Source: Oncomelania hupensis
Lineage: Eukaryota > Mollusca > Gastropoda > Littorinimorpha > Pomatiopsidae
NCBI GenBank assembly: GCA_036898135.1
Contig: CM072517.1
Span: forward strand, 61,779,960 to 61,843,959
Length of the DNA stretch: 64,000 nucleotides
Direction: 5' to 3'
How positions within the stretch are numbered: the stretch's first letter is position 1; each line of letters opens with the position of its first letter. This document shows, piece by piece, positions 23,838 through 63,996 of the stretch. Position numbers and translations under genes: made by a program. The notes beneath the pieces are model-generated. The model had not been told where the DNA came from and did no database searches. It saw only the letters and a program-made list of their open reading frames with translations.

Positions 23838-23930
23838 CGGCCATGCCGGTTGAGCCTGGAGAGCGAATCATCGGGAAAGCATGGTGCCCGTTAGTATTGG
23901 CATGATTGCGGGTCTAATTTACCGCTAATA
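23838..23930 (+). other. 5S-rRNA-like sequence at the outer tip of arm 1
   Basis: CGGCCATGCC at the tip, then GTTGAGCC, CGAATCATCGG, AAAGCA, GCCCGTTAGTATTGGCATGA and CGGGTC follow the order of the conserved 5S rRNA landmarks (5' TACGGCCATACC, GATCACCGAAGTTAAGCA, then the internal-control-region GTTAGTA...TTGGATG and CGCCTGG). It is too diverged to be a functional 5S gene. A 5S-derived SINE head (SINE3 type) is the likely class. Confidence 0.45.
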
Positions 23931-26074
23931 ATCCCTATCCACTCACTCACGCCACTACAGCCTGCTCAGTGCAGATTTATGTTTGTTTAAACCCTCTGTG
24001 AGTGCGTGTCTCACCTCAGCCTTTTGTCCATGAGGTCTTACCTCTGCCTGCAATCAACTTTTTTTTAATAACAGTACCACCTCAACTGGGACGACACGGG
24101 AGCATAATTATCTTTATCCTTACCTGCCATCTGTACCTTCACCAATATCTGTGATGCACAAGTATGTCTTCAGTGATGGAGTGTGCCTAGTTTATAGATT
24201 AAGACCAGCGTCCCAGGTCTGCCATTTTATCATAGTTATTATTTTGTATTCTTATTTATTATATTTAGCTATTATATTTTATCATTATCTATATACTATA
24301 TTTATCTAATACCTTTAGCTGTTGTTTTTTTCATTATCTATTATCTTTACTCATTGCCTTTTGCTATTGTATCATTATCTTCTTGTTTTTATCATTATCT
24401 TTTAACAGTGTCTATTTATTTCTAGCTATTATCGTTTATTATTCTCTATAGCTATTATCTTTTAGTAGTATCTGTTATCTTTAGCTGGTACCTTTGTCAT
24501 TGTCTGTTTGACAGAATCATGACGCGAGTGGTGGAGTGCGCCATTTTTTATGAAGAGGAATGTCCGATGTCGGCTTCCTTGAAAACGTCTCTCACCTCAG
24601 CTTACTCAAACCTCTTGCTTGCTGGGTGCCCTGGTAACACTGTTTCTCTGTACTGCTGGATTGTTTGTTAGTTTGTTGTTATTGTTGTTGTTGTTGGTTA
24701 TATGTGTGGCGAATTGGGAGGCGACTAGTCAGGCTTGGGAGAGATTGTCCCCCTTGAGGCTGCCGGAGAGAGTTTGTTTCTTTGTGGTCAGTCTCGTGGC
24801 TCGTGCTGTGCAGAATCCTTGGGTATGTGCTTGAACCCTTGAATTATGCAAGACAAGGAGACACGACATATGTTCTGCCCAGCCTGCTCCTTCGTCTTCT
24901 GCTGTTGGGGGTGAACAGGGCTAAATTGTTGGCTGGCATTCTACGCAGGTTTGTGGCAGTAACCTGCAGAGAGTGTGGTGGCACTAATATCCCGCAATTC
25001 GGTGTGCTCTCAATACAGTTCCCGCCTTGCATGGCAACTGATTATTATGTCCCTCTTAGGCACGATGAAGCAACATTACGACAAAGCTTGCTGCGTCCGA
25101 TTTTGTACTCAGGACTTTGACGTGGCGTATAGGTATGCACACTTAAATTAGATTATCCCACATATAAGGCATTGTATATACATAGAAATCATTATATCCA
25201 TTGAATGTTATTTATAGCATTTTCACTCATACGGCTCTTATAGGGCCGTGTTCTTATGGTAGTGACCGAGAGTCGGGAGTCAAATACTCCTATCGGCACG
25301 TATGATTTGTAGGTCGGAAGATTGATTAAAATTTGATGAATTGTTTTGGTTGGCAATCGGTTTTGGTTATTTTATTGTCTGGGTTGGGTTTGTACCTTGT
25401 CCTCTGCATTCCTTGCAGCCCGATGTCCTGCTAACGATGTCCTTCTGAGTCTGTTTGGCTGGATGACTTAGTCGTTTAGTTCATTCGTTTATTGGTGGGT
25501 TGGTTGGGTATGTTTGTTTGGTTGGTTGATTTGGACGTCTGGTAAATTCATGTATTGGTTGGTTGGATGGCTATGTTCATTTCCTCAATATTATTATAAT
25601 GAGTGGAGACGTTGGTTTAATTCCCTGTGCATGATACGAGTGGTTCCGCCAGTCAAGCGAAATTTTCTGTAGAATTGTTGTGCGGATATGTGTATCCTGG
25701 TGGAGAAAAGAGCTGGAAGAAACTGGTGTAGTTTTTTGTGGCGGTATGTGGATGTTGAAAGAGTAGTTGAAAGTATGGCGATCGTTTATCATTGTTATAA
25801 CAAATGTGGTAGTACTGGCTATCTTGTGGTTTTATGCATTATTTGTATTTGTTTTTAAAACATTTTCTATTTTCTGAGCTGCAGTATGCTCCATTCTCCA
25901 TTGTGAGTAATAAAGATTGTTGATTTGACTTGACTTGTCGCTGGCTGTTGGATTGGGTAGTTAGTTGAGTAGCTGGTTGATTGACTTAAGGTGTTGGTTA
26001 GCTGTGGAAGTAATTGGAAGTGTGACTGCCTACTTCACTTCTTATGTCATTAGGACAACCAAACTTTCAGAGCA

Positions 26075-26150
26075 GAAGGGTGTGTGGATGTGTGTGTGTG
26101 TGTGTGTGTTGGTGTGTGTGTTGGTGTGTGTGTTTGTGTGTTGTTTGCCT
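26075..26150. repeat. (GT)n-rich tract in arm 1
   Basis: A GTGTGT-rich stretch with TTG interruptions. The matching site in arm 2 (39235-39455) is a longer CA/CATC-rich tract, so this tract is longer in arm 2. Confidence 0.85.
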
Positions 26151-26261
26151 GTCGGTGTCTCAGTACAGGCATCTGTGTGTGGCTGTGTGAGCAATTACTA
26201 TTATAAAGAGGAGCTTCACCCTCAAGTGTTTGTTTTGCAGATCAATATGGCTACCAGGCCC

Positions 26262-26283
26262 GCACTCAAAGTGGAGGTACCTC
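26262..26283 (+). repeat. Single-copy ancestor site of the arm-2 18-bp minisatellite
   Basis: CACTCAAAGTGGAGGTACCT occurs once here. At the corresponding position in arm 2 the same motif is tandemly amplified about 14-fold (38852-39113). Confidence 0.8.
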
Positions 26284-28029
26284 AAAGTTTCTGATAATAA
26301 TTAAACATAAATGAATTAATTTTATAAGTAAAACAAATCAACTAAATAAATATATAAAATAAATGTACACATTAATAATCAACTAAATAAAAACTTAAAA
26401 TTAATTGATTAATTACAATTAAGTAAAATCAAATAAAAAATAAATAATTATTTAAACAATGTATGATTTAATGTCCAGATGGAGACACGGCTTTCAAAAT
26501 AATTTTATTTACATATATATTGTAAACGACAAGAACAACAGCAATCTAAAAAGAGTTCCTTTACAGCGTGACATGTACATGTCCAATATGAATTTTTATA
26601 AATTTAAAAATGTGTTTTAATATTTAATTACTGTATTTTCTTCTTCCATGCATTTATTTATTTTATTTTATTTTGTTTTGATTCTAGCAAGTTCCATGGC
26701 CACATTTTCGACTTTGCTACTGTCATCGGTCCTCCTCTTGGGTCGTCTGTAAAGGGGCATCACCGTACAAGGCAAACGATGTGTTTCTCTCTTGGCCAAA
26801 GACGTCAGATCTCCTTAGTCCAGGCGCACAAATTAGAGCAGATCAGTGTAGGGTAGAGTTAAATAGTTTGAATCGGATTAGATCAGGTCATATCACACCA
26901 ACTTACGTTTGATTTGATTTGATGTGAGTAGCTCAGACCAGACTAGATTAATTTTCAGTAAAAGGCCTTTCATACGTGGACATGTTTCGTCATGTTTCGT
27001 GGCAGGCAAAGGACATGCTTTTCGCGGACCCCCCACATTACTAGATTTGAACTCATTTTCAATCTTGCACGCAAACCTTTACCTCGATATGATAATTCTT
27101 ATTTTATTTTGCGCACTACTGAAGGTGTGTCCGCGGTAACCAATCAAAATGCTCAGATGCCAAACGTCCCCATGCAACAGCCAATGAAAAACAATGCCAG
27201 TTTCCTTTGCGAATTCAGTCGGTCTATTTACTCTTTTGACTCCTCCTTTCCTTGAGATAATTGTTGCTGTAGTATTTGTGAATTAATGACCGTTTGGGAA
27301 TAAAACACAGCTGTTTTAACGCGTTACAAGAACAACGGTAACAGCTGCTGCTACTGCAGCTGGCTTGCGTTTTTATATCAAAACCAACGGATGCCATATT
27401 GCAACTATGCAGCTTTCCCTCCCATACGGCTTTGCGAATTGCAAAGGTCAATGTCACATTGCGTGCAACGCATTGCTTCGTCTGAACACAACAGACAAGC
27501 AAAGCACTGCCTGCAATGCTTGCTAGGCCTATTTTTGCCTGCTACGAAACATGTTCATGTCTGAAATTAAGACAGGGCACATTAGATTAGATCATAGTTT
27601 TGTTATTTTAAACTATATATTTATGACAAATAAAAAACATTTGATTGTTGCTTAGTTTCAAAATCTTTCTCCGTTTTGTTTGATTGATTAGTGTGCTGTG
27701 AACAGTTGCTGATTGTTTTCCAATATATTTCTCCTTTGCATTCTTATAGGCCTACATTAAATTCCAATGTTTTCTCAAAAATGTTTGTGACCCTACAAAG
27801 TATGACAGTGTATTTCAACGTCCGCACATTCCAACTATACTATGCATTCATGTTATTATGTTTTGTTGATGTTGTGTACAGAATAAAAATTGTAGGTATA
27901 ATTTTTTTATGCACCTGCAACAGACTTCAAAACTATTTTTGTTAAGTTTTGAAGCATGAAGTTGCAACAAAATAAAAACACAAACGCCTATAAAGTCAAA
28001 ACACATACACGTGGGAGATCAGACACGCA

Positions 28030-28043
28030 CTCTCTCTCTCCCC

Positions 28044-28083
<40 letters not shown>
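28030..28083. repeat. (CT)n-(CA)n compound microsatellite
   Basis: CT repeat followed by CA repeat, immediately left of the MITE-like element at 28089. Confidence 0.9.
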
Positions 28084-28088
28084 ACCGT

Positions 28089-28332
28089 GTAGAAATGCCG
28101 TTGTGATGACTTTCATAAAACTCTACATACGTTACTTTGACATTTTTACAAATGTGTCCATTTTTGAAGCTATCCCTAACCCTAACTCTAACCCTTTCCC
28201 TAACCCCAACCCTTTACCTAACCCTAAGCCTAACACAGCCCTAACCCTAGCGGAACACTGTTTTGACGTCAAAATAACGGGGCCGTCAAAAGAAAGAGGT
28301 TCAAGTGTATGTCAGAATAACGGCGTTTCTAC
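28089..28332. mobile_element. MITE-like element with 14-bp terminal inverted repeats
   Basis: Left end GTAGAAATGCCGTT (28089-28102) and right end AACGGCGTTTCTAC (28319-28332) are inverted repeats with one mismatch. The 244-bp interior has no ORF. It is absent from the equivalent place in arm 2, where CA/GT and GA repeats run on directly, so it inserted after the arms formed or was lost from arm 2. A TA dinucleotide just inside each end could represent the target. The superfamily was not assigned. Confidence 0.65.
28172..28252. repeat. Degenerate telomere-like CCCTAA repeats inside the MITE
   Basis: About 12 variants of CCCTAA / CCCTAACT / CCCTTTACC, complementary to the TTAGGG repeat widely found in animal telomeres. 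They lie wholly inside the MITE-like element. Confidence 0.8.
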
Positions 28333-29294
28333 CTAGCCACACACCCTGTCACGGCCACACACACGCACACACATACAGGACCGTCTGCACAAGATTTAAA
28401 TCTACTTTTTGTTATACTGTTTTTTTAGTGTGTTGGAAACAGCGAATAGATCTATCAAAACCAATGCCGAAGTTTTGAAGAATGAAGTTGTTCAAAACTA
28501 GGAGTCAAACTTTTAAGCAAGTGATAACCTCTTTGCATTTTTTCATTGACTCAGTTGATAAATATTTTGCTGTTAACTGCTTGCATTTGTAAGCGTGACC
28601 ATGTATATTTAATAAAGGGATCCACTTTGACCACAACCCTTTGACATACCCGTTTAACTACCCTTCAACACATCCGTGTAACATTCATAGTGAATGTTGC
28701 CCCACTGAAAACATTTTGCTTGCGACCCAAAACAACGTTTTTTGAAAGGATAGTTGTTGTTTTTTTAAATCAATAAATTGCGTAGGTTTTGCACCTATGA
28801 AGAGCAACCGCTAGCTACCTTTCTACAAATATCATCTAGTAGATCGTGGAGCGTATTGGTGTACCGTTAAACAGGGGAAAGCACTCCCTATCAGAACAGA
28901 ACCGTAAAATTCAAAATTTAGCGGTTGGTTTGAACTAAGAAAGCCAACTTTATCATTGTTGGATGTAATAGCAATGGGAATGTTAGGCTAAGCTCATTAT
29001 TTGCCAAATGTAAGCAAAGCGCTCGAATTGGGTCACTTTAAAAGAAATTCCTGTTTTTATACAAACATATCGCAAATGTGCATCATGCGTGCTTTAACCA
29101 CAATAAACTGCTGTGTTTTGTTCTACGTGCCAGGTTTTCGCCGTGTTTGTGTGTGTGTGTGTGCGTGTGTGTGAGGGTGTGGGTGTGTGAGTGTGTTTGT
29201 GCCTGTTTCCATCGATCCATGAAAACAACACATGGAACAGTGTTAGACCTATTGTCCTTTTACTAACGCCTTTATTCTCTTAAAATTGTTGAAG

Positions 29295-29674
29295 TCGAAA
29301 TCAGATTGAGGGCGGGGGAGAGAGACTTGGCTTTGGCTTTGACATTTTATTGAATAAACAACCCCTTCATTTCAAATTGGGAAAGTGGGGAGGGGATGCA
29401 TGGAAATATCAGGTCTCACAATATTTTACAAATACATACGCAATATCGCCAAAAGCAAAACGATCAACTGGAACAAGAAAGTTGCTAATTAACTTAGATC
29501 TAGAGTCTTTGAGTGATCACACGCAAAGTCTTCCAATCTCTATGGTTGATTATTTAACATCATCTTATCATTTTCTTTTCTTAGCAAGTGTTTCACCAAC
29601 TAGAATTCACATCGAGTTTAAACGTCCTACGTATGTGTGTAACATTAACAAACTGTTACGTGAAAGCAAACATT
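29295..29674. other. No gene seen; start of spacer between the arms
   Basis: AT-rich sequence after the arm boundary at 29294. A 108-residue open frame at 29350-29676 on the plus strand shows no domain, splice border or conservation that I can identify. Confidence 0.4.
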
Positions 29675-32190
29675 AATAATAATATAATAATAATGGACAT
29701 TTATATAGCGCTATTACTTGTCTTTTTATAGACAAGCGCATAGCGCTTTACATGAAAGAAAAGAAACAAACATGAAACAACTTACAATATTGCATTAGAA
29801 ATTATACAATGAGAAAAATTAAAATAAAATAAAACCAAACACACAACATCACACAAAATACATAAAGTTAACTTTCTGCAAACAAGTCATCACAATCACA
29901 GCAAATCCACAAGCATAGCCAAAAGCAGAACAAATATGAGCTGCGGCTAGGGTCTATAGAATGAAGGATTTAGTCAGGATAGTAGAGTTTGAAGAGGTGA
30001 GATTTTAGAGCTTTCTTGAATGAGGGTGTGGTCTGCTTGTGTCTGATGTTGGCTGGAAGAGTGTTCCATTGTCTGGGTGCACAATAGGTGAATGCCCGTT
30101 CTCCGTACATTTTGGTGTTGGTTTTTTGAATGCAGAGTGTGCGAGAGTCAGAAGAAGAGCGAAGAGTGCGAGAAGGGACATAGACTGACAGCAGATCTGA
30201 CAGATATGAAGGGCAGGTTCCAGAGAAGAAATTGTGGCACAGTACGGACAGTTTGTATTTAATGCGGGCCTCTATGGGTAGCCAATGAAGCTTACGGAGT
30301 AGTGGAGTGATGTGATCGCGCTTTTTTGCCCTAAAGACTAGCCTAGCAGCACAATTCTGGACTTTTTGAAGTTTGTCTATGAGATGACTCGGGCAGGAAG
30401 CCAGTAGGGCATTACAATAGTCTAGCCTAGACAAGACTAAAGCACAGACTAAGGTGATGGTTGCTTGAAGGGTTAAGTAGCAGCGAATGGAGCTGATCTG
30501 ACGCAAGGCAGCATATGCTGATTTACAAACTTGTGCAATATGGAAATCAAGCGTCATGTCACTCGACATAAAAAAGCCTAGATTTCTAGCCGACTGAGAG
30601 AAAGAGATTTTATGCTCTCCTACACTTACAGAGGTAGGCAAGGTGCAAGCTAAGGCAGTTCTGGTCTTTTTGAACAGGAGAACCTCTGTTTTATCATCAT
30701 TGAGCTTTAACTTGTTTTGTTTCATCCAGGATCGGACATTAGAAATGCAATTCTGTACAGTCTGGACATTGGTATCGATTTGTACCGGAAGACTTGATTT
30801 TAAAAGCTGAGTATCGTCAGCAAAAGCTTCAACAGTTACATCGTGTTTTTGAATCAGTTCGAGCAAAGGCTTTGTGTCCAAGAACTGACCCCTGCGGCAC
30901 ACCATAGGTCACATTTTCCTTCTTTGAGAGCACGTCAGCAATGCTGACAGTTTGCGTACGACCTTGGAGGTATGACTTGAACCAGGCCAAGGCATTCCCT
31001 GAAACTCCAAACTGCGACTCGAGAGTTTCGAACAGAATATTGTGGTCTACAGTGTCAAAGGCAGCCGATAGATCAAGAAGTGTTAGAAGAGATAAGTTGC
31101 CTTTGTCCAGAGCAAGCAGAATGTCACCTGTGATTTTGAGTAATGCTGTCTCGGTGCTATGAGAGGTGCGACAGGCTGACTGATGGGGACTGAGAAGAGA
31201 GTTGCTTTGCAAGTATGAGAGTAACTGCTTCAGTACCAACTTTTCTGTAACCTTGGACAAAAATGATAGATTAGATACGGGTCTGTAGTTTTTTAGTTCA
31301 TTCTGATTTAGGCTGGGCTTTTTTAGCAGTGGCTTAACAACTGCCGTCTTGAAAGGTGCAGGAACAGTAGCGGTGGACAGAGACTCATTGACAATGTGTG
31401 TTATTGTTGGGAGAAGAGGGTGAAGGCAGTCGAGGAGGAGAGAAGTGGGAATGGGATCAAGAGAACAAGTGGTTGGTTTAGATTTTTGTATGACCTCCCT
31501 GACTTCATTAACAGAAACTGGTTCAAAATGGTCAAACCGTACATAATTCAAAACAGTTGGCGATGCATCTACATTTGTCTGCACACCAGCATCGTGATCA
31601 AGTTCATAGCGTATATCAGCGACTTTCTTGGTGAAAAAGTGACAAAAAACATCTGGTAAGTCACAAGGTGGGTGAGTGGTAGGTAAAGCGCTACTTTTTT
31701 CCTTGCCTCTGAGGCGGTCACAGACCGAGAAGAGTTGCTTGCTAGTCTCACTGTTGGCCACTCGACCACTAAAGAAAGCAGACTTGGCCCTATGGACAAT
31801 TTGCGTTACTCGTCGCTTGGCAGCAGTGTAAATTTGTTTGCCCACTGTGAGACCACTCTTCAACCATCTCCTCTCAGCCTGACGACGCTGCCTCTTGGCT
31901 TCACTGAGCTCATCCTCGACAGCACTGTACCATGGTTCTGACTTACCTACCCTAACCTTACACCTGTAGATAGGGGCATGCCTATCTAGTGCGTCCCTCA
32001 GTGTGGCCTCCAGCTGTTCCACAGAGGAACACAAAGCCGGACTCACTACCTCACCGAGGTCGCGCTTTAAGGCTTCGCGATCTACATCTCGCAACTTGCG
32101 AACATCTCTGTAATGGGGAGAGGGCAAGGGGATAGCAACATTGAGGTCACTAACCACAGTATACTGCGCTCTTATCTTCATTCTCTTCTT
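29675..32190 (-). mobile_element. L2/CR1-group LINE, 5'-truncated, with TAA-type tail
   Basis: The 3' end on the minus strand is the simple TAA/ATA repeat at about 29675-29694, preceded by the TATAGCGC-type motif at 29700-29715. About 275 bases of 3' UTR precede the RT remnant. The 5' end is truncated near 32190, within the region just before the RT domain, so no endonuclease domain is left. Confidence 0.8.
29970..32181 (-). pseudogene. L2-like reverse transcriptase, frameshifted
   Basis: Two overlapping frames carry one RT. Frame 1 (32181-30829, 450 residues) holds the pre-RT linker, then KNYRPVSNLSFLSKVTEK, SHSTETALLKI, LLDLSAAFDTVDH and YGVPQGSVLG. Frame 2 (30905-29970, 311 residues) resumes at KPLLELIQKHD with FADDTQLL, NKLKLNDDKTEVL and the C-terminal LHWLPIEARIKYK segment. 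About seven residues normally found after PQGSVLG (the LLF-type motif) are missing, so a small deletion near 30880-30890 caused the frameshift. Otherwise the coding sequence is fairly clean, which points to moderate age. Confidence 0.88.
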
Positions 32191-32467
32191 TAAAGGAACA
32201 CAGTTTATCTACATTGTATTTATCGCGACATACACATGTTTTGTCAGTTAAAAACGATCTGAATGACCCTTTACAGACAAACAGACTTGGCGTTAGGCAC
32301 GATCACTTTGCTTATATGTTCATTTCACACATTCGCTCCTTCATTCTTTATGGAATAATAACGTAGAAAATACAAAATAGCAAGCATTATGTAATCAAAA
32401 ACTGGGTTTTTCAGATTAAGGAGAATGTTATGTAAAGCTGATTACCATGCAAGCATTCACACTATTT

Positions 32468-32710
32468 TTAATCACCATTCAATCCTCTTTCGTTCCTTCT
32501 TCTGTAAACTTTATACAAATAACGAGACAATTCCATTATAGATAATTCATCGCCCGCCGACATCACAACTGATGCATCATGGTTGTCTTCTTGGATCAGC
32601 GTTTTCAGTATTTGGACATCGTCTCTGAGTTCATCGTAGGCATTACATTCAAATAAAATATGAATCTCATCTTCGGGACGCTCCTCGCACACAGGACAGA
32701 AGAACTGCGG
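32468..32710 (-). pseudogene. C-terminal zinc-binding fragment of a LINE polyprotein
   Basis: The minus strand reads FFCPVCEERPEDEIHILFE, then CNAYDELRDD and a helical tail to a stop at 32468. CPVC...EDE.H.LFEC..Y.ELR is the pattern seen at the end of many invertebrate LINE polyproteins. No RT domain adjoins it. Upstream (32720-32800) is a GT/GA-rich simple repeat. Confidence 0.6.
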
Positions 32711-32803
32711 GGGGAGAGAGAGAGAAAGAGAGAGGGCGCAAAAGGTGGTGGTGGTGGTAGTGGGGGGGAAGGGAAGAAAACAATAACTTATAAAATGTCT
32801 CAT

Positions 32804-34912
32804 TCACGTAAACAGATGCCTGTTGTCTGTAATGAACCTTTGTTTAGCAAGGACCAGTTGTGTTCGAACAACAAAGAGACGCCTGAAATTCAAAGCTTAG
32901 CGGCCTGTGTGAGCAACGATTACCCACTAGGTCATATTTTACTGTGTGTGCTAGCCACTAAATCTACCAACTCGCATTCATCTCGTATTTAAGTCAGACT
33001 CACTCGAAACAGTAACACGATTTTATTTGCTTCCAAAGGGGGACAAGAGAGTACAGCATCTTTTGTTGTTGTATCACATTTTATTCATCAGATTAACATA
33101 AGTTGTACTGATAAGTACACCATCAGCCCAAGTCCGAACTACAAGCCAAACAAACTGACTGTTTAGGTGAAATCTGTCGAAACATAAACACTTATGTCAA
33201 AAAACGTAACAAGACGTAGAATATATGAAGATAACATCAGATTATACATGCCAAAATAAACATGTCATACACTGCATGAAACTAATTTCTTCAAACCAAG
33301 CATAACTCCAAAAAATGCTCACATGAGCGGACGGCATAAAAACTCCAACATAGACCACACAAGCGTGTTCTCCAAAAATAAACGTTTACCTATGCATCTT
33401 TCTTAAACAGAATTTTAGAGAACATTACTCTACTAAGATTACAGTTGACTAAGTAAGGCAAAAACTTAAAGTGCAGTGTAAATCTAGCCTCTTGTTACAT
33501 CATCTGTGTTGTATTGCTCTGCCCTGTCCAACTGTCCTGATACTAAAGAATTAACTGGACCTTAAGCAATGTACAAACAAACAAACAAACAAACAAACTG
33601 TGGAGCGGACTATAAGACAACAACAAGCGTTAAAGAAAAGAAAAAAAAAGTAATCATACAAAAACAACAAAGAAAACCAAACCAAAGGAAACAATAACAT
33701 ATTTACAAATTGAACTGAATTTGACAATAATTATGATTATGCAAAGCAGTGTTAAATTTTCACAAGTTCCCTTTTGTTCAATTGACAACCAACGCTCTTT
33801 AGCCCACTAATCACTATTCAATGGGGGATATTAATTTATGAATACAATTTAGCATTCTGGCATGCTGCAATAGTTTTGTTTTATGATTCAGTCACCAACA
33901 GCACAAACTTGAATATCATAAAAAGGCCTCATGTTTGTATGAAATAAATAAATAAATAAATAAAATAAGTAGAAATGAACTGTTTTAATTCACCATTTCC
34001 ATGGAAATTGTAAGCTCTATATCACAATGTTGACGAAAAACAAATGTGCAAAAATACCAGCATTATTGCAGGGAGTCATTTTCCTACACATTACACAGTA
34101 ATTTTGTTGACAAATATATTCGGGATTCATCAGAAACACGCCGATACAGTCAAGCAATATCGTCTGTAATTACATGTTGCTATGTGGTCTGTTTACCTCC
34201 CTTGACCTGCTCCGCCACGCAGCCGCTTGTTGTCGCCGTGGTGTCGCTGACGTCACTCGTTTCGCATAGAATCGTGTTATGATTCTTTTTGTAGTATACC
34301 CATATTCTTTGGTATAACTTACAGGTGGAAATGGCAATAACATTTTCTGTTCTGTTTTCAATACACAATAGGTACAGATAAATTAAAAACAGGCATCATG
34401 GGTCTCCAATTCCTCAGTACCAGCATAGTGAGGACGTTGTCCGTCTTATTTCTTTCGCTGCTAGTTAACCTGTAGTCCTGTTATCAAGAAAGCCCGGTAC
34501 CAATCAACAGATTGGTGTGCTGAGGATGTCGGATGTTTGTTTTGTTTTGTTGTTTTTTTTTTCTCCCAGTTTGAATGTCATCCATCCAAGTGGCCAAGAA
34601 CTAGCCGGGCTGGTTTGTGCGTAATCTTGGCAGAGTGTCGCGTACCCAGGCCACTCTTTTGATAGGCTCGGTTAGATTTACTCAAGTACTAAAAGACCCA
34701 ATTCAGTGAAGATCAATAACGATCGTGTCATGAACACTCTTATCTATCAATATCATTGACTATAATTTACACATCGATGTTGGATGCGTAATACTAGAAG
34801 CACCAGCATCGCGCTCTTTCCACAGTAAAACAGTGCGAAAATCAATAATCAAGGTCAGTGAAGGTCAACGAAGGTGACGTAAATGACTACTTGTTACACA
34901 ACGTATGAGTAC
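32804..34912. other. No gene seen; AT-rich spacer
   Basis: Short simple repeats occur (ACAA near 33580; AATA near 33945) with a poly-T near 34550. No exon with both splice signals and coding bias was found. It may hold diverged introns of the transporter-like exon to its right. Confidence 0.35.
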
Positions 34913-35089
34913 CTATAATGACGTGGGTGAGGGCGGCGTTGGAGGCGTTGATTAACAGCACCAACCCCATGGCAGCCCCAGGAGGTCGATGATCACCACC
35001 GCCAGCAGGTTCTGACACACCCCTCCATTCAGCCCGTAGATCACAGCGTACGTCGCCAAAAACCAAAAATTGGTGTAGAACCTGTCCCA
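34913..35089 (-). pseudogene. Exon resembling monocarboxylate-transporter (MFS) TM helices, with frameshift
   Basis: On the minus strand an acceptor (CCCTTATAG, exon from 35089) and a donor (ATTATAG then GTACTC, after 34913) bound 177 bases. Frame 0 reads WDRFYTNFWFLATYAVIYGL, then NGGVCQNLLAVVIIDLLG. One base appears missing at about 34976-34980. After that shift the frame reads AMGLVLLINASNAALTH. The YGL.GG...LLAV...DLLG...GL.L..NA order fits helices 10-11 of SLC16-like carriers. With a frameshift and no neighbouring exons recognised, it is probably a gene fragment. A sequencing error in a live exon is the alternative. Confidence 0.5.
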
Positions 35090-35326
35090 CTATAAGGGAG
35101 ACAACACGTTTGTGTACAACACACGTGATAAAGGTGTCTTTACCAAGCCCAGGCGACACACTGACAAGCTGAGAACACAGCGAAATGGCCATCTGTATCT
35201 ATAACACTAATCTATAGGCACAACCCATTGGCAGCAAGAAGGAGGGGCGGGGGGAGGGGGATAGATCTTTCTAATCATTCCATCTTTCCACGGAGGATAG
35301 CATCCAATAAGGATTTTATTCAAGAT

Positions 35327-35455
35327 CCTATCCTATCCTATCCCGTAACTCAAAGGTCGTTGGGGCAACACAGATGATCGTTTAACCAGCGTACTCCATC
35401 TTTCTCTGTTCTCAGCAACCCTCATGGCCTTCGTTCAGTGTCAGACCAGTCCATT
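35327..35455 (-). mobile_element. RTE 3'-end fragment, copy c
   Basis: 129 bases of the same RTE 3' end with the GGATA-type tail at 35327-35342, flanked by the 9-bp target duplication ATTCAAGAT (35318-35326 and 35456-35464). It is a severely 5'-truncated but authentic retrotransposition event. Confidence 0.92.
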
Positions 35456-35464
35456 ATTCAAGAT

Positions 35465-35785
35465 ACTATCAATAACCTTCAGTCCCAGTTCTACACAAAA
35501 CTTCTTGTCTCCCTTATTCCACTCTCCAGCAGTCACTATCTAAACATGTCCCAATACATTGGGGTCACAACAGAGTGAATGGTCATCAGGAAAAATGCTT
35601 AACTAAAGCACCTTGCACAAGAAGTAGACTGGGCAACCTGACGCAAGCAAATGTTTGAATTGATGACGCAATACTTATTATGGAATTGATTTTGCGATTT
35701 TTGTGCACCGTCTGTCTTGATGTTCCGTGCGCTTTAGCAAAAATGTTGTCTGATGTGTGCGCTTTACAAAATAAAAACATTATTA

Positions 35786-35845
<60 letters not shown>

Positions 35846-50715: not shown

Positions 50716-50796
50716 TGCAAGTTCCATAAGAAGCATGTGAGTCATATGGGATGTGTCCTTTTAGTTCAATTTAATATTAATGAAGTATGTGCATAT

Positions 50797-51454: not shown

Positions 51455-51530
51455 CGGCTCAAGGCGCTCACTTGCAACCTTTGGGCGCATAGTCTGACGC
51501 CAATTCGACTAAGCAATCCTGATGAAAATT
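51455..51530 (-). other. tRNA-like sequence, probably an old SINE head
   Basis: On the minus strand, GCTTAGTCGAATTGGC resembles box A and a D arm, followed by a GTCAGACTATGCGCCC anticodon-arm-like stretch. The box B region (GGTTGCAAG) is weak and no acceptor stem closes, so this is not called a tRNA gene. Confidence 0.3.
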
Positions 51531-52632: not shown

Positions 52633-52846
52633 CTAGCTCTTCTTTGTGAATTCGTTGAAGATGGCTTGACATTTTTCCATTAAATGTTCTTGGCAAAAAA
52701 TACAACATTGCTTTTTGACAATGCATCTTTGACTTGAGCAAAAAAACTGAACACTTGAATGGGCACTTGAATGGTCACTTTCTAGGACTTGACCATTTGC
52801 TTTGGCTTGCGAAGAGATGATCGGCATCCTGGATCTGCAGTATATA
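52633..52846 (-). other. Possible terminal coding exon, unrecognised
   Basis: On the minus strand an acceptor-like ATACTGCAG (near 52840) precedes an open frame containing CSSQRCIVKKQCCIFCQEHL, then MEKCQAIFNEFTKKS and a stop at 52633. The cysteine spacing looks protein-like, but I recognise no family. It could be the last exon of a minus-strand gene. Confidence 0.25.
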
Positions 52847-52985
52847 ACATACCACAAGGGTTATTGCTAGAGTTTGAGACAAAATACATCTTACTCACAA
52901 AAGATCGAGCAAGAAGAATTATATTTTAATGTAGTCTATGCAAGCAAAGTGGTTTTTATTTGGGTGAACATAGAACTGGTGAAAC

Positions 52986-52988
52986 AGA

Positions 52989-53049
<61 letters not shown>
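52986..53049. repeat. (GA)n microsatellite
   Basis: Almost pure GA repeat. Confidence 0.95.
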
Positions 53050-53052
<3 letters not shown>

Positions 53053-53263
53053 TGGCATGGCGGGGGTAGAGGGGATATTAAGTATGCTGCCAAGATGATT
53101 AACAAACAAACCATTTTAAAAACACTTAGTAATCTGACAATCTACCCTGGACCTTAACACCCCAAAACTAACGATTTCTTTTTTTATTTTTTAGGTGATA
53201 CGCCACTATGGGCAATAGCACTTATATATTTTTGGGGGGTGAGCATAGCCTAGAGGCCAAGCA

Positions 53264-53462
53264 TAGACATGGGGGAATAGAAACATGGGAATTTAAACAT
53301 CAGGGAATAAAGACCTGGAGAACATAGACCTGAGTTAACATAGGCCTGGAGGATGACAGGCCCGAGGGAATATAGACCTGTGGAAAATAAACCTTGGTGG
53401 ACACCGACCCGAGGAACAGACCTGGGAGAACACAGACCTGGGGAAACATAGACCTGGGTAAT
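53264..53462. repeat. Degenerate minisatellite, core GGGAACATAGACCTG
   Basis: About 11-12 imperfect units of 15-19 bases (ACATAGACCTGGGG, GAATATAGACCTGTGG, GAACACAGACCTGGGG). Confidence 0.8.
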
Positions 53463-53647
53463 CATGGATCTAATTCAGGACAGTACAACAGTCAATGAAG
53501 ATAAGGCTAACCTAGAATGTGGTGATAAGTATGAACAATGGGACGAAGACTTGAACGGCCCATTTTGTCGCCTCCTCTTTCGTCCTCGCATATCATGGCT
53601 CTCTGTTGACGCTTTTGATATTCTGGTTTCTTGGGTCTCTCTCTTGC

Positions 53648-53730
53648 ACGATGTGACACCCTGTTGAAAAACAAAAGATTCAAGTAGTGGAGAGCCAGAA
53701 CTTTCAATATTAATATTGGGGAAAATATTC
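53648..53730. repeat. Direct repeat, left copy, bracketing a LINE ORF1 remnant
   Basis: CACCCTGTTGAAAAACAAAA, then GATTCAAGTAGTGGA and TTTCAATATTAAT, closely resembles 56338-56410 in the same orientation. Confidence 0.7.
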
Positions 53731-53779
53731 AGCTGACAAGAATGCAAACGGACTAGATCTAACATCATGGTAAGTGAGG

Positions 53780-55615
53780 TTAAAGTATGAAACAGCCTAA
53801 TTCCTGGTAGGGGAAGTGCGTGGCATGAGGCGAGCTGTTACCTACGCAAGCTCGGCCATCTAGCGTTATCTCGCCCGATCTGAGTCGGGCATCGAACTGG
53901 GCCAACAGTTCACTAATAGCACTGAGGTCAGGATAACCACATGGGCCCACTTCTTTAGGGGCGGCGGACCCACCACCGCCTCCACCGCCCCTGTCGGAAC
54001 TGGCAACCGCGCCGGGACCTCCCGAGGGGAATGGCCTTGTGCACGGCCACCAGAGAGGGAGCTCTGTGACCCAGATCGCGCTCGGCGTACAGGACGTCGG
54101 CGCCAACCTGTTTTTGGGTAGGAGCAACCGGTGCCCCGGCCGTCCGGCCACGGACCATCTCGACAAGGTCCACAACGGACTGGATCAGTCTTTCGACAAG
54201 GCGTTCGAGCCTGTGAATAGCCACCCAAGGGTCGTTTTTGGCACCAGGTGCCAACCTCACAGGCTCTGTGTAGGATCCCGAACCCACCCCGGTGACCGGC
54301 TGGGCTGTAACTGTATCCCCTTTCTCGCTCCCCGCCGCCAAGCGTCAGAGAGAACCACTCCAAGCACTAGGGGGGGGGGGGGGGGGGGGAAACGGGGTGG
54401 AGCAAACACCCCCGCAAGAGCTGCAACGCCGCCCGACACGCCCGAGGCCACGTCCCCACTCGCCGACTCAGACATAATTTTTTGTTTGGCCAGGCATAAG
54501 GCCTGCGCTCGTGGCATGAATGTCGCCGCTCGCAATTCATTCGCCAACAGGCGCTCACTGAGAGTAGGGTAGTTATGATTAGCGTCCGAGTGGTCACCAC
54601 GACAGTTGGCACAAGTTCGCCCTACGGCTCTACAAGCGGCCCCCGAGTGACCGGCAGCCCTGCAGGAAGAACAAATCTGCGCAGAATTAAAATTTTTTCG
54701 AATGTGCCTGAATCTTTGGCACCGGTAGCACCTAAGTGCCGTTGCCACGTAAGGAGTCACCAGGAACTCCCTACAATTGAGAAGGAGAGCTGCCGCAGCG
54801 TCATCGCCTCGACTGTCACCCTAACCGCGGTGGACGGCTGTCCATCTGACCGGAGGATGCGTTGGAATTTCCTAACCTTGCAGGTGCGGACGGTACCATC
54901 CGGGTCCACCGATTCATTGCACTTTCCGAGTATCTCCTCCACCGGCACGATGGGGGAGAGGGGTGGGGGTGGGTGGGGGGATGCCAGAGACAACCCCCTC
55001 CACCACCGGCACTGGGTTAGTACATGCTATCATAATCTGGCCCACCTGCGAAAGTTCAAACAGTTTCTGTTACTGCGCCAAGGTTTTACAACCTATGAGG
55101 AAACCTTCATCTTTATGTAGGGGTCTTACCCTGTCCACCGCGCCCACAGAACCGCGCAAGAGGTCTGCCAGCTTCCAACCAAATGATTTGAATGAAACCA
55201 AAGTGGTATCACCTTTTTGTCTAATAACTACCGCAAATTGACAAAGACCGTAATTTGGTGTGCGAGTCGGCCCCAGGGGTCGTCTCATTTTGTTCTTTCT
55301 TCTACTGGTAACAGTAGACCACGCTTGACCCAACGAGGGGGGGGGGGGGTCACTCGAAGCAGCGACTGGAGGGGTCACCAGGTGTACCACCTCCTCGAGC
55401 GTGGGACCAGAATCAAGGGACTCCACTCCCGAGCAAGGATCTGAGGAAGAGGGAGCAGCCCTCTCTTCCATAAAGTTATCCTCAATCTCCTCCGGAATGG
55501 ACGAGAGAGATGGATCATGGGCCCCCATCCACCTAGAGGAAAAGAGCCAGGGGCCAGCACTAACGGCCGCTCCCGAACAAACGTCCAAGGGGGTGGGAGC
55601 AACCCCATCCTCCAT
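53780..55615 (-). pseudogene. LINE ORF1 (gag-like, CCHC zinc knuckles), frameshifted
   Basis: Pieces on the minus strand read in order. 55615-55070 is an acidic, Ser/Pro-rich N-terminus with tandem PEE.EDN.ME repeats, then a globular part (LCQFAVVIRQKGDTTLV). 54993-54757 has VRKFQRILRSDGQPSTAVRV. 54760-54257 has the knuckles CYRCQRFRHIRKN, CSSCRAAGHSGAAC and CANCRGDHSDANH. The remainder to 53780 lies in other frames (LVERLIQSVVDLVEMVRG; ISELLAQFDARLRSG). Three CCHC-type knuckles after a nucleic-acid-binding domain are typical of ORF1 in I/Jockey-group LINEs and of gag. A run of 19 G at 54371-54389 is one likely frameshift point. No RT adjoins it. Confidence 0.72.
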
Positions 55616-56337
55616 AGAATTATCATCAGTCTCCTCCGGGATGGACGAGAGAAAGAGGAATCAGAAAGTGTTTCCTGGGCACTCTTCCACCAAGGAGAAG
55701 AGGGCCCGGGGTCAGCACTAACGGCCAAATTATTCAGTCAGAGAGCAACGCCCCCACCGTCCTGCGAGTTCCGTTTACCAATGTCATCGTCTCTCAGTTC
55801 AGTTTTGTTTTGAGTAACCGGGTGATCCTTTCCACCCCTTTTCTTCGCGGCGATGCGCCTCAAAGTCCAAAAATTCAACCAGGATCTGTCAAAACCGAGG
55901 TTTAAAGATTTAATTCAAAACCTATCAAAAACATATCAAAATCGATCTCCAATGAGGACCCAAACATCTCAAATTCCTAGCTAAAAAAAAGGTTACGAAA
56001 GCTTAAAAACTTTTTCAAATCTATAAAATATTCACCAAAGGAGCAGGTAGCGCCAAAGCCATTAGGACATCCAATCTCAAAAAGGTAAGGCAACGGCGCA
56101 GCAGTCGCAAGCAGTAAAGCGGTGAGGCATCTCAGGACAGCAGAGTGCAAGTACGTGCAAGCCCGTTTAAGTCTCGCCAGCAGAAGATGCAATTCAGCAA
56201 AGCGTAAGTGGCAACCAGGTGTGATACGTGACACGTCCTCCTCCGATAATGTTCCGCCTGAGAATCATTCCATTCACTCAGTGGTGTATTGCTGTCTGCT
56301 GACCCTTGGGGTACCCTGGTTTTATAGGTATCTGTGG

Positions 56338-56412
56338 CACCTTGTGAAACCCTGTTGGAAAACAAAAGAATCGAGTTGTGGAAAAATAAAACTATCAATA
56401 TTAATGCTGAGA
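56338..56412. repeat. Direct repeat, right copy
   Basis: AAACCCTGTTGGAAAACAAA, then AGAATCGAGTTGTGG and CTATCAATATTAATG. Same orientation as 53648-53730. It breaks into the ORF1 remnant that follows on its right. Confidence 0.7.
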
Positions 56413-56424
56413 TTACAAAAAATC

Positions 56425-56990
56425 TGCCAGCTCTAATCACGCCTTCAAAACCACTTTCTCTGGTGACTTTCATGTCTTTGGTGATGATGACTCCCAACCT
56501 GTTTTCCAAAGGTTGTGGTGATTCCCCTGGCGCCGACGGCACTCCGTTAAATACTAGGTTGTGACGTCTTGAATCATGTTCTGCCATGTCCTGCCGTGTG
56601 CCTTTCTTGTTCAGGCGCTCACTCATCATTTCCACTTTCTGTAGTTTCGTTTCAAGACTATCCACTTTTTTTCCTTAGCTCTTGGTTTTCTCTTCGATCA
56701 TTTCCAGCTTGGCACTCATCTCACAATATCTCCACAAATTCTCTCTGTGTCGCTTTCCAAAGCCTGAAGTCTCTCATCTAGATTCTTCTCCGCCTGGTTC
56801 AGTTTGATGGTCACAGCTTGGGCAATATTCACTTGCTATTTATCGATGCGATTGACGGCTTGAAATACTTTTTCGATCGCTACCAACACTCTGCTGTCAC
56901 CGCCGTTGCTGTCGGTGTGGACGCCTTCGTCGGCGTTGTTACATAATTTTCATTCGGTCACGGATTCATCTCCACCTCGCCACTTTGAAT
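56425..56990 (-). pseudogene. Second LINE ORF1 remnant (coiled coil and RRM start)
   Basis: On the minus strand a coiled-coil-like stretch (KLNQAEKNLDERLQALESD, then KLEMIEEKTKS) with stops leads into SLETKLQKVEMMSERLNKKG and RRHNLVFNGVPSAPGESPQP. This is the signature start of the RRM-like domain of L1-type ORF1 proteins (RR.NLVF.G.P). It ends where the direct repeat at 56338-56412 begins. Confidence 0.72.
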
Positions 56991-57169
56991 AATGGGAGCC
57001 ACAGTCAGAAACAGCACCACCAAATCGGAGGGTGTGACGCTGGGTTGTTTCGAGTTTCTATGGTCTGAAGCGTAGTGCAGCTTTCTTCACCCTTTTTGCT
57101 ATAAATGCTATGAAGAAGCGGTGAAAGACGCCAACAACCAGCCTATGTTTTACAGCTGTAGTGGGCATA

Positions 57170-57310
57170 GTTTTACAGTTATGTAGATTCACCGTTGCAG
57201 TTAGGTAGATAGCCTACACCTTTGCAGTTAGATAGACAGACTACACCTTGCAGTTAGGTGGGTAGCCTACACCGTTGCAGTTAGGTAAATAGCCTACACC
57301 GTTGGAGTAC
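57170..57310. repeat. Minisatellite, unit about GTTGCAGTTAGGTAGATAGC
   Basis: Four to five imperfect units of about 33 bases, each ending CTACACC. Confidence 0.85.
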
Positions 57311-57429
57311 AATACTATATAGTAAACTAGAAACCGCAACACATTTTTCTGTCAATAAACATCACTAATTAATATCTGAACTCACTGCTACAGCAAAATG
57401 CGTCCGCACGCTACCATGACTATGTTTCA

Positions 57430-57776
<347 letters not shown>

Positions 57777-57789
57777 GAGTGGGAAAAGA

Positions 57790-59052
57790 GAGAGAGAACC
57801 AATCCATAGTGCACAATTTTTAATAGTGATCCTTAATCTCACCTTTGAATTATCCCTTGTCCTTTAGGAAAAGCAAACACCTGGCTTGTTGAAGAAAACA
57901 TCTGCAAATGAAATGTAAAAACAATGACAGCAACGAAACACACATTTATTGTGTTTCTTTTCTCGCCCTCCATTCTCTTCTTTAACTTCACTTTCAGTTC
58001 ATATTTGAACAACATTATATTCCTTACTCAAAGCAAAACATGGTAAAAGGTGTTTTCTATTCCTTTTAATAGCATCCTGCGTCACTTTAGCTCAGAATTT
58101 AAAAAAAATAATTTTAGATCTAATTTCCCTTCGTAACCTACACACAGTCGATTTAGATCAAAATTTATTTCGTCTTGAATAGAGTATCAGTAATTTGGTT
58201 CATTTGCTGATAATGATTAGAAATTGTTTGAAAATGAATGCGGATTGTACTCCTTTTTAGTTTGTGTATTGGGGCGCTGTGAATGTCATGTGTTAAACTT
58301 CCTTGGTCAATTTAATTTATATAACAATATATAATAGAGTGTAGGCTACACAATATTTTAGTTATGCATTACCGCAATCCAAATATCAGCATAAAACTAT
58401 GATAATTTTTTTTTAAATCGACACATAAAAACTTCATTGAAAATAAAAATTATCAGAGGTGAAGAGTAACATTCTAAGCCAAAAGCAATTATAGGCCTAT
58501 AGGACAGAATTCGTACACAAACAACAGCACATGCACGCTTAGATGCACTCTTTTAATCTGTTTCAAACACACTTAATGGCAACATATATATATATTATAT
58601 TACTATAAATCTGTCCTCATCTTTTACAAATCGGAAAACATCTAGTCCTCTGCTTCAACTTATATTGGGGGCATTATCACAGCCCCCAGCACGACAAAAG
58701 ACACATGCTTTCCCAACTTCCTACGTTTTATACCAAATAAAATGTTTAGCCATATTACCTATCCTTATAATATAGGCTACATTCTGCTCTGGATGGGAAA
58801 AGAAATGAATCTAGATGTAACGACGGCTTTTTTTTATTTCGTAAAAAACAGATCTACTTATCTCGCCTAGATCTAGCTTAACTTCGGCGTTCGGTTCCCG
58901 ACCATTCGATCGATCACAGTCTCATTCCAATACAATTATAACCTACGAATAAAATATCATCAACAAACAAGTAAAATCAACAATGACAAAAGCATACAGT
59001 TTATGTTCCATAACACATATCAAACAATCGTACAATTAAAATTCTTGCTCAC
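57790..59052. other. No gene seen; AT-rich
   Basis: No supported exon, RNA gene or transposon protein. Confidence 0.35.
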
Positions 59053-59076
59053 CTTGGGGCCACAAAGCATCGCCAT
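59053..59076 (-). CDS. Possible short first coding exon (minus strand)
   Basis: On the minus strand ATGGCGATGCTTTGTGGCCC plus CAAG is followed by a consensus donor GTGAGC (59052-59047). It would encode MAMLCGPK. The GC content differs from the AT-rich surroundings. Eight codons cannot prove a gene. The alternative is chance. Confidence 0.25.
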
Positions 59077-59269
59077 CTTGAAACTGCAACTCGTCATTGA
59101 AAGTTATCTTCCCTTGCCATGTGTGCTTTGGCAAGTGGAAACTTTTTTCACACACTTTGATGTGTGAAATAATTCACACACGAATTTGACGAAAGTGCAC
59201 AAGGAGGTTCCAGCCTTGAAAACTTCTAAAAATCCCGATTTAGCACTTCTCTTCAAGAAACAGTATTAA

Positions 59270-59363
59270 AAAAAGTGGGTTCCATTTTTTGAAACCCACT
59301 TGTTTTTGGAACCCAGTTGGACGCTTGTGTGTTAATCTAAGGAACCGAGTTGGATAGTTGTGA

Positions 59364-59402
<39 letters not shown>
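59270..59402. repeat. GGGTTCC-motif repeat and (CA)n microsatellite
   Basis: AGTGGGTTCCATTTTTTGAA and its inverse AACCCACTTG form a small palindrome (59275-59312). A CA repeat follows at 59366-59402. It mirrors the arrangement at 48016-48365. Confidence 0.7.
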
Positions 59403-59405
<3 letters not shown>

Positions 59406-59763
59406 ACGCACAAATTATACACACTAAAACTGCCAATCTATATCACGGGTTACAGTTTAGGAAGCGCTCATAACACCCTTACGGTCAAAAGGCAGCAAGT
59501 CATAAAAAAATAAACAGATGTGCATAAAAAAAAAATTTCTCAAATTTGATAAGCCTTATTTCAAACATTTTCAACAGCAAAAGGTGAAAATCGCGGTCTA
59601 AAACATTTTGTTAAAATATAATTAAAAACCCCCATATATAGACAAGAGACTAAGAACCGAAAGCAAGCCCATGTGAGGTTGAAGGGACGTAACTCCTCCA
59701 CCGTACATCACTTCTCATAGAGGCGATATCGCGAAGTGATCTCTCTCTTCTTCCTTTCTCTCT

Positions 59764-59794
<31 letters not shown>

Positions 59795-59860
59795 GGATGG
59801 ATGGATGGATGGATGGATGGATGGATGGATAGATAGATAGATACATAGATACATAGATAC

Positions 59861-59930
<70 letters not shown>
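59764..59930. repeat. (GATA)n-(GGAT)n-(GATACATA)n microsatellite
   Basis: GATA, then GATG, then GATACATA, then GATA again. Frames rich in Ile/Tyr/Leu/Ser on the minus strand are repeat artefacts. Confidence 0.95.
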
Positions 59931-60489
59931 GTCAATTTCAAGAAATGCCCGAGACAATCTAATTTAAGTGAGCATACCTACACGCCACGTCGATGTCCTG
60001 AGTACAGCAAATCCATGTTAGAATTTCTCCTTGGGGATAATACAGTTTTCTGAATCTGAATCTGAAAATCGGACGCAACAAGCTTCTGGGTACGTTTATC
60101 AGTCATAACGTTTCCCACCTTGCCTAAAAGGGACATAATAATCAGTTGCCATGCAAGGCGGGAACCATAATGAGAGCACACCGAATTGCCGGCTATTAGT
60201 GCCACCACATTCTCTGCAGGTTACTGCCACAAACCTGTGTAGAATGCCAGCCAACAATTTAGCCCTGTTCACCACTAAAAGCAGAAGACGAAGGAACATG
60301 CTGGGCAGAACATATGTCGTGTCTCCTTGTCTGGCATAATCCAAGGGTTCAAGCACACACCCAAGGATTCTGCACAGCAGGAACCACCCAAAGCCAGACT
60401 GATCACAAGGAAACTAACTCTCTCCGGCAGCCTCAAGGAGGACAATCTCTCCCAAGCGTGACTAGTCGCCTCCCATTCCGCCACACATA

Positions 60490-60672: not shown

Positions 60673-60925
60673 AACAATCCAATAGTACAGACAAACAGTG
60701 TTACCAGGGCACCCAGCAAGCAAGAGGTTTGAGTAAGCTGAGCTGAGAGACGTTTTCAAGGAAGCCGACATCGGACATTCCTCTTCATAAAAAATGGCGC
60801 ACTCCAACATTCGCGTCATGATTCTGTCAAACAGACAATGACAAAGGTACCAGCTAAAGATATAGATACTACCAAAGAGCTTATTATGCTCATTAAGCTC
60901 TTTGATACTACTGAAAGATCATAGC

Positions 60926-61062
60926 TATCCTATCCTATCCTATCCTATCCCGGCCGTAACTCGCAGGTCGTAGGGGCACCACAGATGATCGTTTAACCCG
61001 CATACTCCATCTTTCCTTGTCCTCAGCAACCCTGATTGTTTCGCAGTGTAAGACCAGTCCAT
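60926..61062 (-). mobile_element. RTE 3'-end fragment, copy g
   Basis: Five TATCC pentamers followed by the conserved RTE 3' coding end. It stops at CCAGTCCATG after about 137 bases and is inserted in arm 2. Confidence 0.92.
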
Positions 61063-61196
61063 GGTCAAAGATAAAAATAAAAAACAATTAGAGATAAAAG
61101 ATAATGATACAAATATAATAGCAAAAGGCAATGAGTAAAGATAATAGATAATGATAAAATATAACAGCTTAAGGAATTATATAAATATAGTATATA

Positions 61197-63818
61197 TCCT
61201 ATCCTATCCTATCCCGTAACTCTGAGGTCGTTGGGGCACCACAGATGATCGTTTAACCAGCGTACTCCATCTTTCTCTGTCCTCAGCAACCCTCATCGCT
61301 TCGCTCAGTGTCAAGCCAGTCCATTCTCGAATGTTTTCCTCCTACCTCTTTTTCTGTCTCCCTCTTTTTCTGCCTCGTTGCACCGTGTCTTGCAGAATGA
61401 TCATTGAAAGGCCTGATGCTCTGGTAACGTGGCCATACCATCGGAGTTTCCGTTTCTTCACTACTGTGAGCAGGTCATCGTGTTGTCCAATGGCTTGTGT
61501 GATGGTCTGTCGGACTTCGTGGTGATGTGCTGGGTATAGGAAATGCCCAGAATTCTTATGCAGCACCTCATCTCCATGCTTTGTACTCTTCGTTGTAGAT
61601 CTGCTGTGAGGGTCCATGTTTCGCAAGCGTATAGGAAGATGGAGATGACAAGGGAGCGCAGCAGCCTTAACTTCGAATGTAGACTGATGGTCTTGTGTTT
61701 CTAAATGGTCTTCAACCTTGCCAAGGCAGTTGTTTGTGCGATCCTGGGAAGGACTTCCTGTCGGGAACCATTGTCTGATACAATGGCTCCTAAATATTTG
61801 AAGCTGTGCACTGCGTTGAGGGATTGGCCTTGGACTTTGATGTCCGTGTTAATGGCATTGGTGTTGTTGGTCACCATTTTGGTCTTCTATGCACTTATTT
61901 CCATTCCATAGGATCTTGGGGTGGTGTCAAGCCTCTGTTCCAGCTGTTCAATTTCTTGTTCCTCTCCAGCCAATCCATCACTGTCATCCGCAAAACGAAG
62001 GTTGGAGATTGCTCTACCACCTATGCTGATTGTGCCTTCGTGATCTGTACGGGCATCTGACAAGATGCGCTCTAGGAAGATGTTGAAGAGTGTTGGAGAG
62101 AGTAGGCATCCTTGACGCACACCGATTGTTGTTCTGAACCAGTTTCTGATGGCGCTGTTATGGAGGACTGCACTGGTAGCTTGTCATACAGGCTTTTGAT
62201 GACTTCAATAATTTTAGGGCTGATGTTGTACTCTCTCATGATTGCCCACAGAGCTGCATGCCAGACTCGATCAAACGCCTTCTTGAAGTCTACAAACACA
62301 TGATATAAATGTTGTTGGTGCTGTAGGTATTTATCGCACATTATTCTGATGTTGAAAATCTGTTCAGTGGTACTTCGCCCTGCCCTGAATCCTGCTTGTT
62401 CTTCAGCTATGATTTGTTCAGCTTAGGGTTTCAACCTGTTGAGCATTATTTTCAGGAGGACCTTGCTGAGATGGCTGATAAGGTTGATGTTGCGGTAATT
62501 TTCACACTCCTGAAGGTTACCTTTTTGGGAAGGCATAGGCAACTCCCCACTCTGCCAGATCTTGTTACAGATAATCGTGAGGGCGTCAATCATCGCTTCT
62601 CCTCCTGCTTGAAGCAGTTCCGCGGGGATGTTGTCCACTCCCGCTGACTTCCCCTTCTTCAGCGATTGCACTGCTGCCTCAACTTCTTCTCGGAGAATTG
62701 GGAGGATTTCTTCTTCTACTCTGTTCTCTGGACATGCTAGAACTGATGGGTCTCCATTTGGTGTGTGGTTGTAAAGGTCAGAGCAGTACTCTGTCCATCT
62801 ATCCAAGACTTCTTGTTCTTCTGTAAGGCATATGCCAGACTTGCTTTGGACCGTGGAGACCTTGGGCTGTTTAACACTTGTCAGCCGCTTCACAGTCTGG
62901 TAGGCCTTCTTGCTGGTTTTCTTGTTCAGACTGTTCTCTATTTCCTGGCATTGATCTTCCATCCAGATCTCCTTTGCTGAGCGCATGCCTTTTCGGATGT
63001 TATTGTTGATTTTTTGTTGGCAGGTATCAGCTCCCTGTGAGGTGTTCTTTTCCTTTTTCATCTCTCTTCGTTTATCACCAAGGCCCAAAAGTTCAGGTGT
63101 GATCCACGGCTTCTTCTTTGGCCAGTGCTTGCCAAGGATCTCAGTGGCGGCATCTGTCACAGCTGAGTTGAAGGTGGTGGTTATGGTGTTGACATCTACT
63201 TCACGAGCTCCCAAAATGAGCAGTGGAGCAAATATTCCTCCAACTGTGGCCTGAAATATTTCTGCTACCTCCGGGTCTTGCAGTTTGTCCAGGTCGAACT
63301 TCAGTCTAGTGCACTTTGCTGCGTTTACTCTCTTAAGTGGAGCCGGAAAGACACCATCATGAGATCGTGGTCACTTCCGATGTCTGCTCCTGGAAAAGTG
63401 CGTGTCCTGCCAATGTTTATGCTTGATCTGAAGCGTATCTTGACCATGATGTAATCGATTTGATTGTGATGCTCCCCGCAGGACTGTGCCATGTCCATCG
63501 TCTGGATTTCTTGTGGAGACAAAGCGTGTTTGCCAGTATCAGATTGTGGTCTTTGGCAAACTCCAAGAGTCTCAGACCCCTGTCATTTGGCTCGGTGTTG
63601 CAGTGAGGACCCCATGTGTCTTCCCAGTTGTGGTGCGCATCTTGGCCAACATTGGCATTCCAGTCGCCTTGCATTATGATTATGTTCTTCTTTGGCACTT
63701 GGTCAAGGATAGCCAGTAGATTTTCATAGAAATCCTCCACTTCGCTGTCTGATGTTGGGGCATAGTCCTTGATGATTGTGATGTTGAAAGGGGCTGCTCT
63801 CAAACGGATGGTAATGAG
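61197..63818 (-). pseudogene. RTE copy h, long but decayed (endonuclease middle to 3' end)
   Basis: Minus-strand pieces match the intact element in order. 63827-63417: APFNITI, MQGDWNANVG. 63522-63325: QIDYIMVK and GSDHDLMM. 63214-62423: linker to KGKSAGVDNIPAELL and SQKGNLQECENYR. 62341-62072: FKKAFDRVWH. 62120-61887: MRQGCLLSPTLFN and FADDSDGLAGEEQ. 61626-61342: RKLRWYGHVTR. About 200 N-terminal residues are missing, and several frameshifts, including a deletion in the region equivalent to SGEWPIPWTQSL, separate the pieces. The 3' end has a TATCC tail at 61197. Confidence 0.9.
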
Positions 63819-63996
63819 GTGAGACACGCACTCACAGAGGGTTTAAACAAACATAAATCTGCACTGAGCAGGCTGTAGTGGCGTGATTGAGTAGATAGGG
63901 ATTATTAGCGATAAATAAGACCCGCAATCATGCCAATACTAACGGGCACCATGCTTTCCCGATGATTCGCTCTCCAGGCTCAACAGGCATGGCCGT
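63819..63996 (-). other. 5S-rRNA-like tip of arm 2
   Basis: Reverse complement of 23838-24017, including the CGGCCATGCC tip, CGAATCATCGGGAAAGCA and GCCCGTTAGTATTGGCATGA. On the minus strand one further landmark is visible: the base triplet before the tip is ATA, giving TACGGCCATGCC as in 5S rRNA, whereas arm 1 has TTC there. Confidence 0.45.

Follow-up and report, generated by a model that had tools for sequence, protein, structure and literature searches.

How did two arms of one sequence come to face each other in a stretch of 64,000 nucleotides of Oncomelania hupensis DNA (the whole stretch analysed here, referred to as the window), and why is one of them so much longer than the other? The earlier note described this locus as a 40-kb palindrome in which nine blocks recur in reverse order and orientation. 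In a self-comparison of the window, the compact arm (arm A) occupies positions 23838-29294 on the plus strand (5.46 kb), while the inflated arm (arm B) occupies positions 36159-63995 on the minus strand (27.8 kb), its outer end being the edge of the window rather than a measured boundary. A sensitive comparison, combined with block-by-block global alignment of arm A with the reverse complement of arm B, returned 14 collinear blocks in mirrored order; the collinear inverted repeat is therefore upheld, with 14 rather than nine blocks in the chain. In a control comparison, arm A together with the sequence to its left (22301-29294) was set against arm B (36159-64000), yielding 13 matches with a sum of 5,327 bits on the minus strand, a single match of 73 bits on the plus strand, and none when arm B was reversed without being complemented. 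The inverted repeat is real and far above chance. The total span of 40,158 bases agrees with the size originally given, although in each arm just ~3.9 kb is paired.

The divergence between the arms is lower than the roughly 10-15% first proposed. Across 3,910 aligned columns, which exclude simple repeats and the unalignable stretches between blocks, 296 mismatches were counted (146 transitions and 150 transversions), corresponding to 7.6% substitutions, 92.4% identity and a K2P distance of 0.080; with gaps counted, the BLAST matches in the chain are between 85.5% and 97.2% identical. This divergence is near-uniform by direct observation, with no significant heterogeneity along the arms in any of four tests (p = 0.056, 0.13, 0.088 and 0.15), as is expected of arms of a single age, and such homogeneity fits a single event after which the copies drifted and were not homogenised. 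Divergence is lower in the outer 490 columns than in the remainder (20/490 versus 276/3,420 mismatched columns; Fisher p = 0.0013), at a cut that was picked post hoc. The 7.6% divergence, the arm-specific insertions and the absence of any N from the window all agree with the initial proposal of an old inverted duplication, as opposed to a simple assembly mirror.

The two ends of the repeat differ in what can be said of them. The inner edge (29294/36159) is sharp, as had been claimed, since in the sensitive comparison the arms are alike up to this point and different at once beyond it. The outer boundary proposed at 23838/63996 coincides with the end of the window, where the last five bases of arm B read AGATA against ACTTC in arm A (two of the five alike), which are too few to judge. 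Because this edge sits five bases from the window end, the repeat possibly continues beyond position 64,000, and the palindrome may be longer than 40 kb.

Arm B is 22,380 bases longer than arm A, about a fivefold difference in length. The notion of one inflated arm holds, and LINE fragments, a composite block and the growth of a tandem repeat account for it: arm B is long because of segments present only in this arm at six places, mostly LINE-derived or belonging to a 16.7-kb block, besides the tandem-repeat growth. This filling of arm B is directly observed. Outermost lies a 5'-truncated RTE-type LINE with a (GGATA)n tail (61195-63818, minus strand), which is confined to arm B, is 91% identical to positions 9676-12342 of the window and covers positions 1-2667 of the RTE query; the corresponding B-only segment (61197-63814; 2,618 bases) stands opposite an unrelated 271 bases in arm A (24019-24289). 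A second B-only segment (60877-61112; 236 bases against 88 in arm A) contains an RTE 3'-end fragment, again with a (GGATA)n tail (60931-61062, minus strand). Towards the spacer, a LINE of another type, which has a (TAC)n tail and an open frame of 800 codons encoding a reverse transcriptase, occupies the plus strand of 39984-42871, a B-only segment of 2,888 bases for which arm A has five. It is followed by a further RTE 3'-end fragment with a GGATA-type tail (38501-38645, minus strand), at a B-only segment of 175 bases (38504-38678; 32 bases in arm A), and by an RTE-like reverse-transcriptase fragment (36433-36651, minus strand; 43% protein identity to RTE and an RVT_1 match at E = 3e-4, under the Pfam cut-off), most of which falls inside the B-only segment 36453-36722 (270 bases, opposite 462 bases at 28533-28994 in arm A). 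The tandem repeat has a unit of 18 bp and has grown in arm B to 13.9 copies (38849-39110; 259 bases in B versus 17 in A).

For each of these differences, we infer gain or loss from the LINE tails, where tails exist. GGATA-type tails are readable at the junctions with arm sequence for the three RTE pieces, and the four tailed LINEs of arm B are read as probable later insertions. The 16.7-kb and 270-bp segments, as well as 24019-24289 and 28533-28994 in arm A, represent either gain in one arm or loss in the other. The asymmetry itself was considered as a signal and set aside: six B-only sites versus one probable A-only event is not significant (p = 0.125), while six versus none would give p = 0.031.

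The largest B-only segment is a composite block of 16,696 bases (43271-59966), in place of which arm A has 14 bases. It holds two RTE fragments (43368-43629 and 49099-50679), microsatellites, a nested inverted repeat and other open frames. The nested repeat (43193-43940 versus 45599-46039) has outer ends made of arm-B sequence, 43193-43366 recurring inverted at 45865-46039 with 83% identity; it also includes mutually inverted tandem repeats with a 20-bp period (43702-43937 and 45586-45854), with an RTE fragment between its parts. The arm piece 25144-25235 recurs within the block at 45948-46039 (81%), and part of the arms is for this reason repeat-like. A six-frame Pfam scan of 43285-60002 detected no transposase-type domain, and the open frames at 53.8-55.7 kb had no Pfam match above cut-off. 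A cysteine-rich frame on the minus strand (54257-54820), to which Pfam gives weak zinc-ribbon matches only, resembles by eye a retrotransposon zinc-knuckle protein. A weak THAP-domain match at 47209-47295 (E = 0.076, under cut-off) possibly reflects a decayed DNA transposon or a THAP gene; other Pfam matches in scans of the block were weak or due to simple repeats, all under cut-off.

The content of arm A is sparser. Only this arm carries a probable MITE (28089-28332), with 27-nt terminal inverted repeats that are 78% complementary, a value equalled in none of 300 mononucleotide shuffles. A six-frame scan of 22300-29299 found no Pfam domain inside arm A; sub-cut-off matches to DUF3915 and Atrophin-1 on the minus strand of this region fall in a (CT)n microsatellite to the left of the arm and were discarded. 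Neither 1-22300 nor the spacer contains a match to arm A. The spacer (29295-36158; 6,864 bases) in turn has no match to arm A in either orientation or, on the minus strand, to arm B, and it contains a LINE in which the reverse transcriptase is spread across two frames (29970-32208, minus strand) as well as an RTE 3' fragment (35325-35455). In the spacer and in arm B outside the 16.7-kb insert, where Pfam was applied to selected open frames, reverse transcriptase was the only match above cut-off. No Rfam match reached the gathering score, and no tRNA was found.

Four candidate exon stretches with splice-like GT/AG bounds, as identified by eye, lie in arm A (~23760-23889, 24515-24633, near 25065-25136 and near 26240-26301), and can be chained into one frame of 128 residues. 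Pfam returned nothing for this frame up to E = 1, and no PDB entry scored better than E = 0.27. A 131-residue version, to which arm A supplies the first piece and arm B the second and third, matched nothing in Pfam or PDB, and a protein database search that considered only proteins of 0.55 to 1.75 times the query length returned four candidates, none at E <= 10. Between the arms, the third stretch carries ~74 bp of indels, which is no multiple of three. A gene in the arms is not claimed. The last of the four stretches coincides with the 18-bp minisatellite (38824-39165), in which all three minus-strand frames are open throughout.

Inverted segmental duplications are known from inversion breakpoints in insects, and the locus is best filed as a duplication of this kind. 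As in animal inverted segmental duplications, mirrored, collinear and diverged copies are arranged around a spacer, and the copies are long and inverted beyond chance; unlike in those, one arm here is about five times longer than the other by way of insertions. A large inverted repeat with a spacer is likewise characteristic of the gene-conversion palindromes of sex chromosomes, the arms of which are kept nearly identical. The present arms are not near-identical, differing by 7.6% mismatches and by large insertions, and because of the 7.6% difference the locus is not a gene-conversion palindrome. The related literature includes PMC7584159 and PMC1952172 for the duplications at insect inversion breakpoints, and PMC7023750 for the sex-chromosome palindromes.

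The locus is most likely a product of ordinary genome evolution, and probably an old inverted segmental duplication in a TE-rich animal genome. A segment of 5.5 kb or more would have been copied in reverse orientation, such that the two copies face each other across a spacer, which today measures 6.9 kb and consists in part of LINE sequence. The copies would then have drifted apart with no detectable homogenisation, with insertions accumulating in arm B, where four or more are LINEs that carry a 3' tail, and the probable MITE entering arm A. We infer a single copying event, this order of events, and an origin based on repair or replication, the usual route to an inverted segmental duplication. 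Two observations count against a duplication, namely the less diverged outer 490 columns and the recurrence of the arm piece 25144-25235. The latter, together with the repeat-rich nature of the window, would suit arms that are two independent copies of a long dispersed repeat, such as a large non-autonomous element, inserted 7 kb from each other in opposite orientations, for which homogeneous divergence and a sharp end are equally expected. Such a repeat is nevertheless unlikely, given that no further copy of arm A occurs in 1-22300 or in the spacer, whereas RTE is present at eight places, and that arm A is without an element-type protein domain.

Strongly diverged haplotypes of one locus that were assembled head to head would presumably also differ by insertions, which are typical of divergent haplotypes, yet a join of this sort is less likely than an old duplication and, on the whole, improbable: a substitution divergence of 7.6% is high for alleles, the window is without N, and the intervening 6.9-kb spacer matches neither arm A nor, on the minus strand, arm B. 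The suggestion of an inverted-repeat element, i.e., that the whole structure is a foldback-type transposon in which terminal inverted repeats of great length surround a coding core, is not supported and is very improbable. Inverted arms do flank a spacer with open reading frames, but the two large frames of the spacer encode LINE reverse transcriptase, and neither 22300-29299 nor the 16.7-kb insert yielded a transposase-type domain in six-frame Pfam scans. Read as an old inverted segmental duplication, the case shows two copies of one sequence becoming fivefold unequal, largely by retrotransposon insertion, at 7.6% divergence. A single case carries little weight; its importance would grow if the arms turned out to be a young pair of genes or to produce small RNAs.

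With regard to small RNAs, perfect runs of at least 21 bases between arms A and B number 48 (1,707 bases in total, the longest of 72) and are split by inserts; if one transcript spans both arms, these runs could form duplex. The present locus resembles the hairpin-RNA loci of Drosophila (PMC10317233, PMC10292708) in that an inverted duplication can in principle yield a hairpin transcript, and differs from them in its 6.9-kb spacer and in its arms broken by long inserts. It is highly doubtful that the locus would be transcribed across both arms and that its paired blocks, with LINE-filled loops between them, would give rise to endogenous siRNAs directed at the duplicated sequence and at the LINEs of arm B. 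These analyses of the window gave no pointer to a function of the palindrome.

The RTE family extends beyond the arms, occurring at eight places in the window when the query copy is included. The RTE-type LINE at 9676-12957 has a 1,090-residue frame (9685-12957) encoding an endonuclease and a reverse transcriptase. RTE elements are able to move between species. Among the 120 listed of 295 matches to this protein, the sole named animal is the crab Petrolisthes cinctipes (64% identical), and one match bears a bacterial MAG label; no exact match to RTE was found in phage records. The same LINE sits between the first two of three arrays (7012-9673, 13030-13725 and 15486-22290) in which a 58-bp satellite and 48-bp variants of it are repeated, its GGATA-type tail directly abutting the satellite, and looks as if it had inserted into a single satellite array. 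The 58-bp satellite had no exact match among viral and prokaryote contigs. Furthermore, near-perfect (AG/CT)n microsatellites of ~100 bases each are located at 4427-4526, 22653-22765, 47760-47862 and 57434-57539, and (GATA)n arrays at 46904-47052 and 59764-59930.
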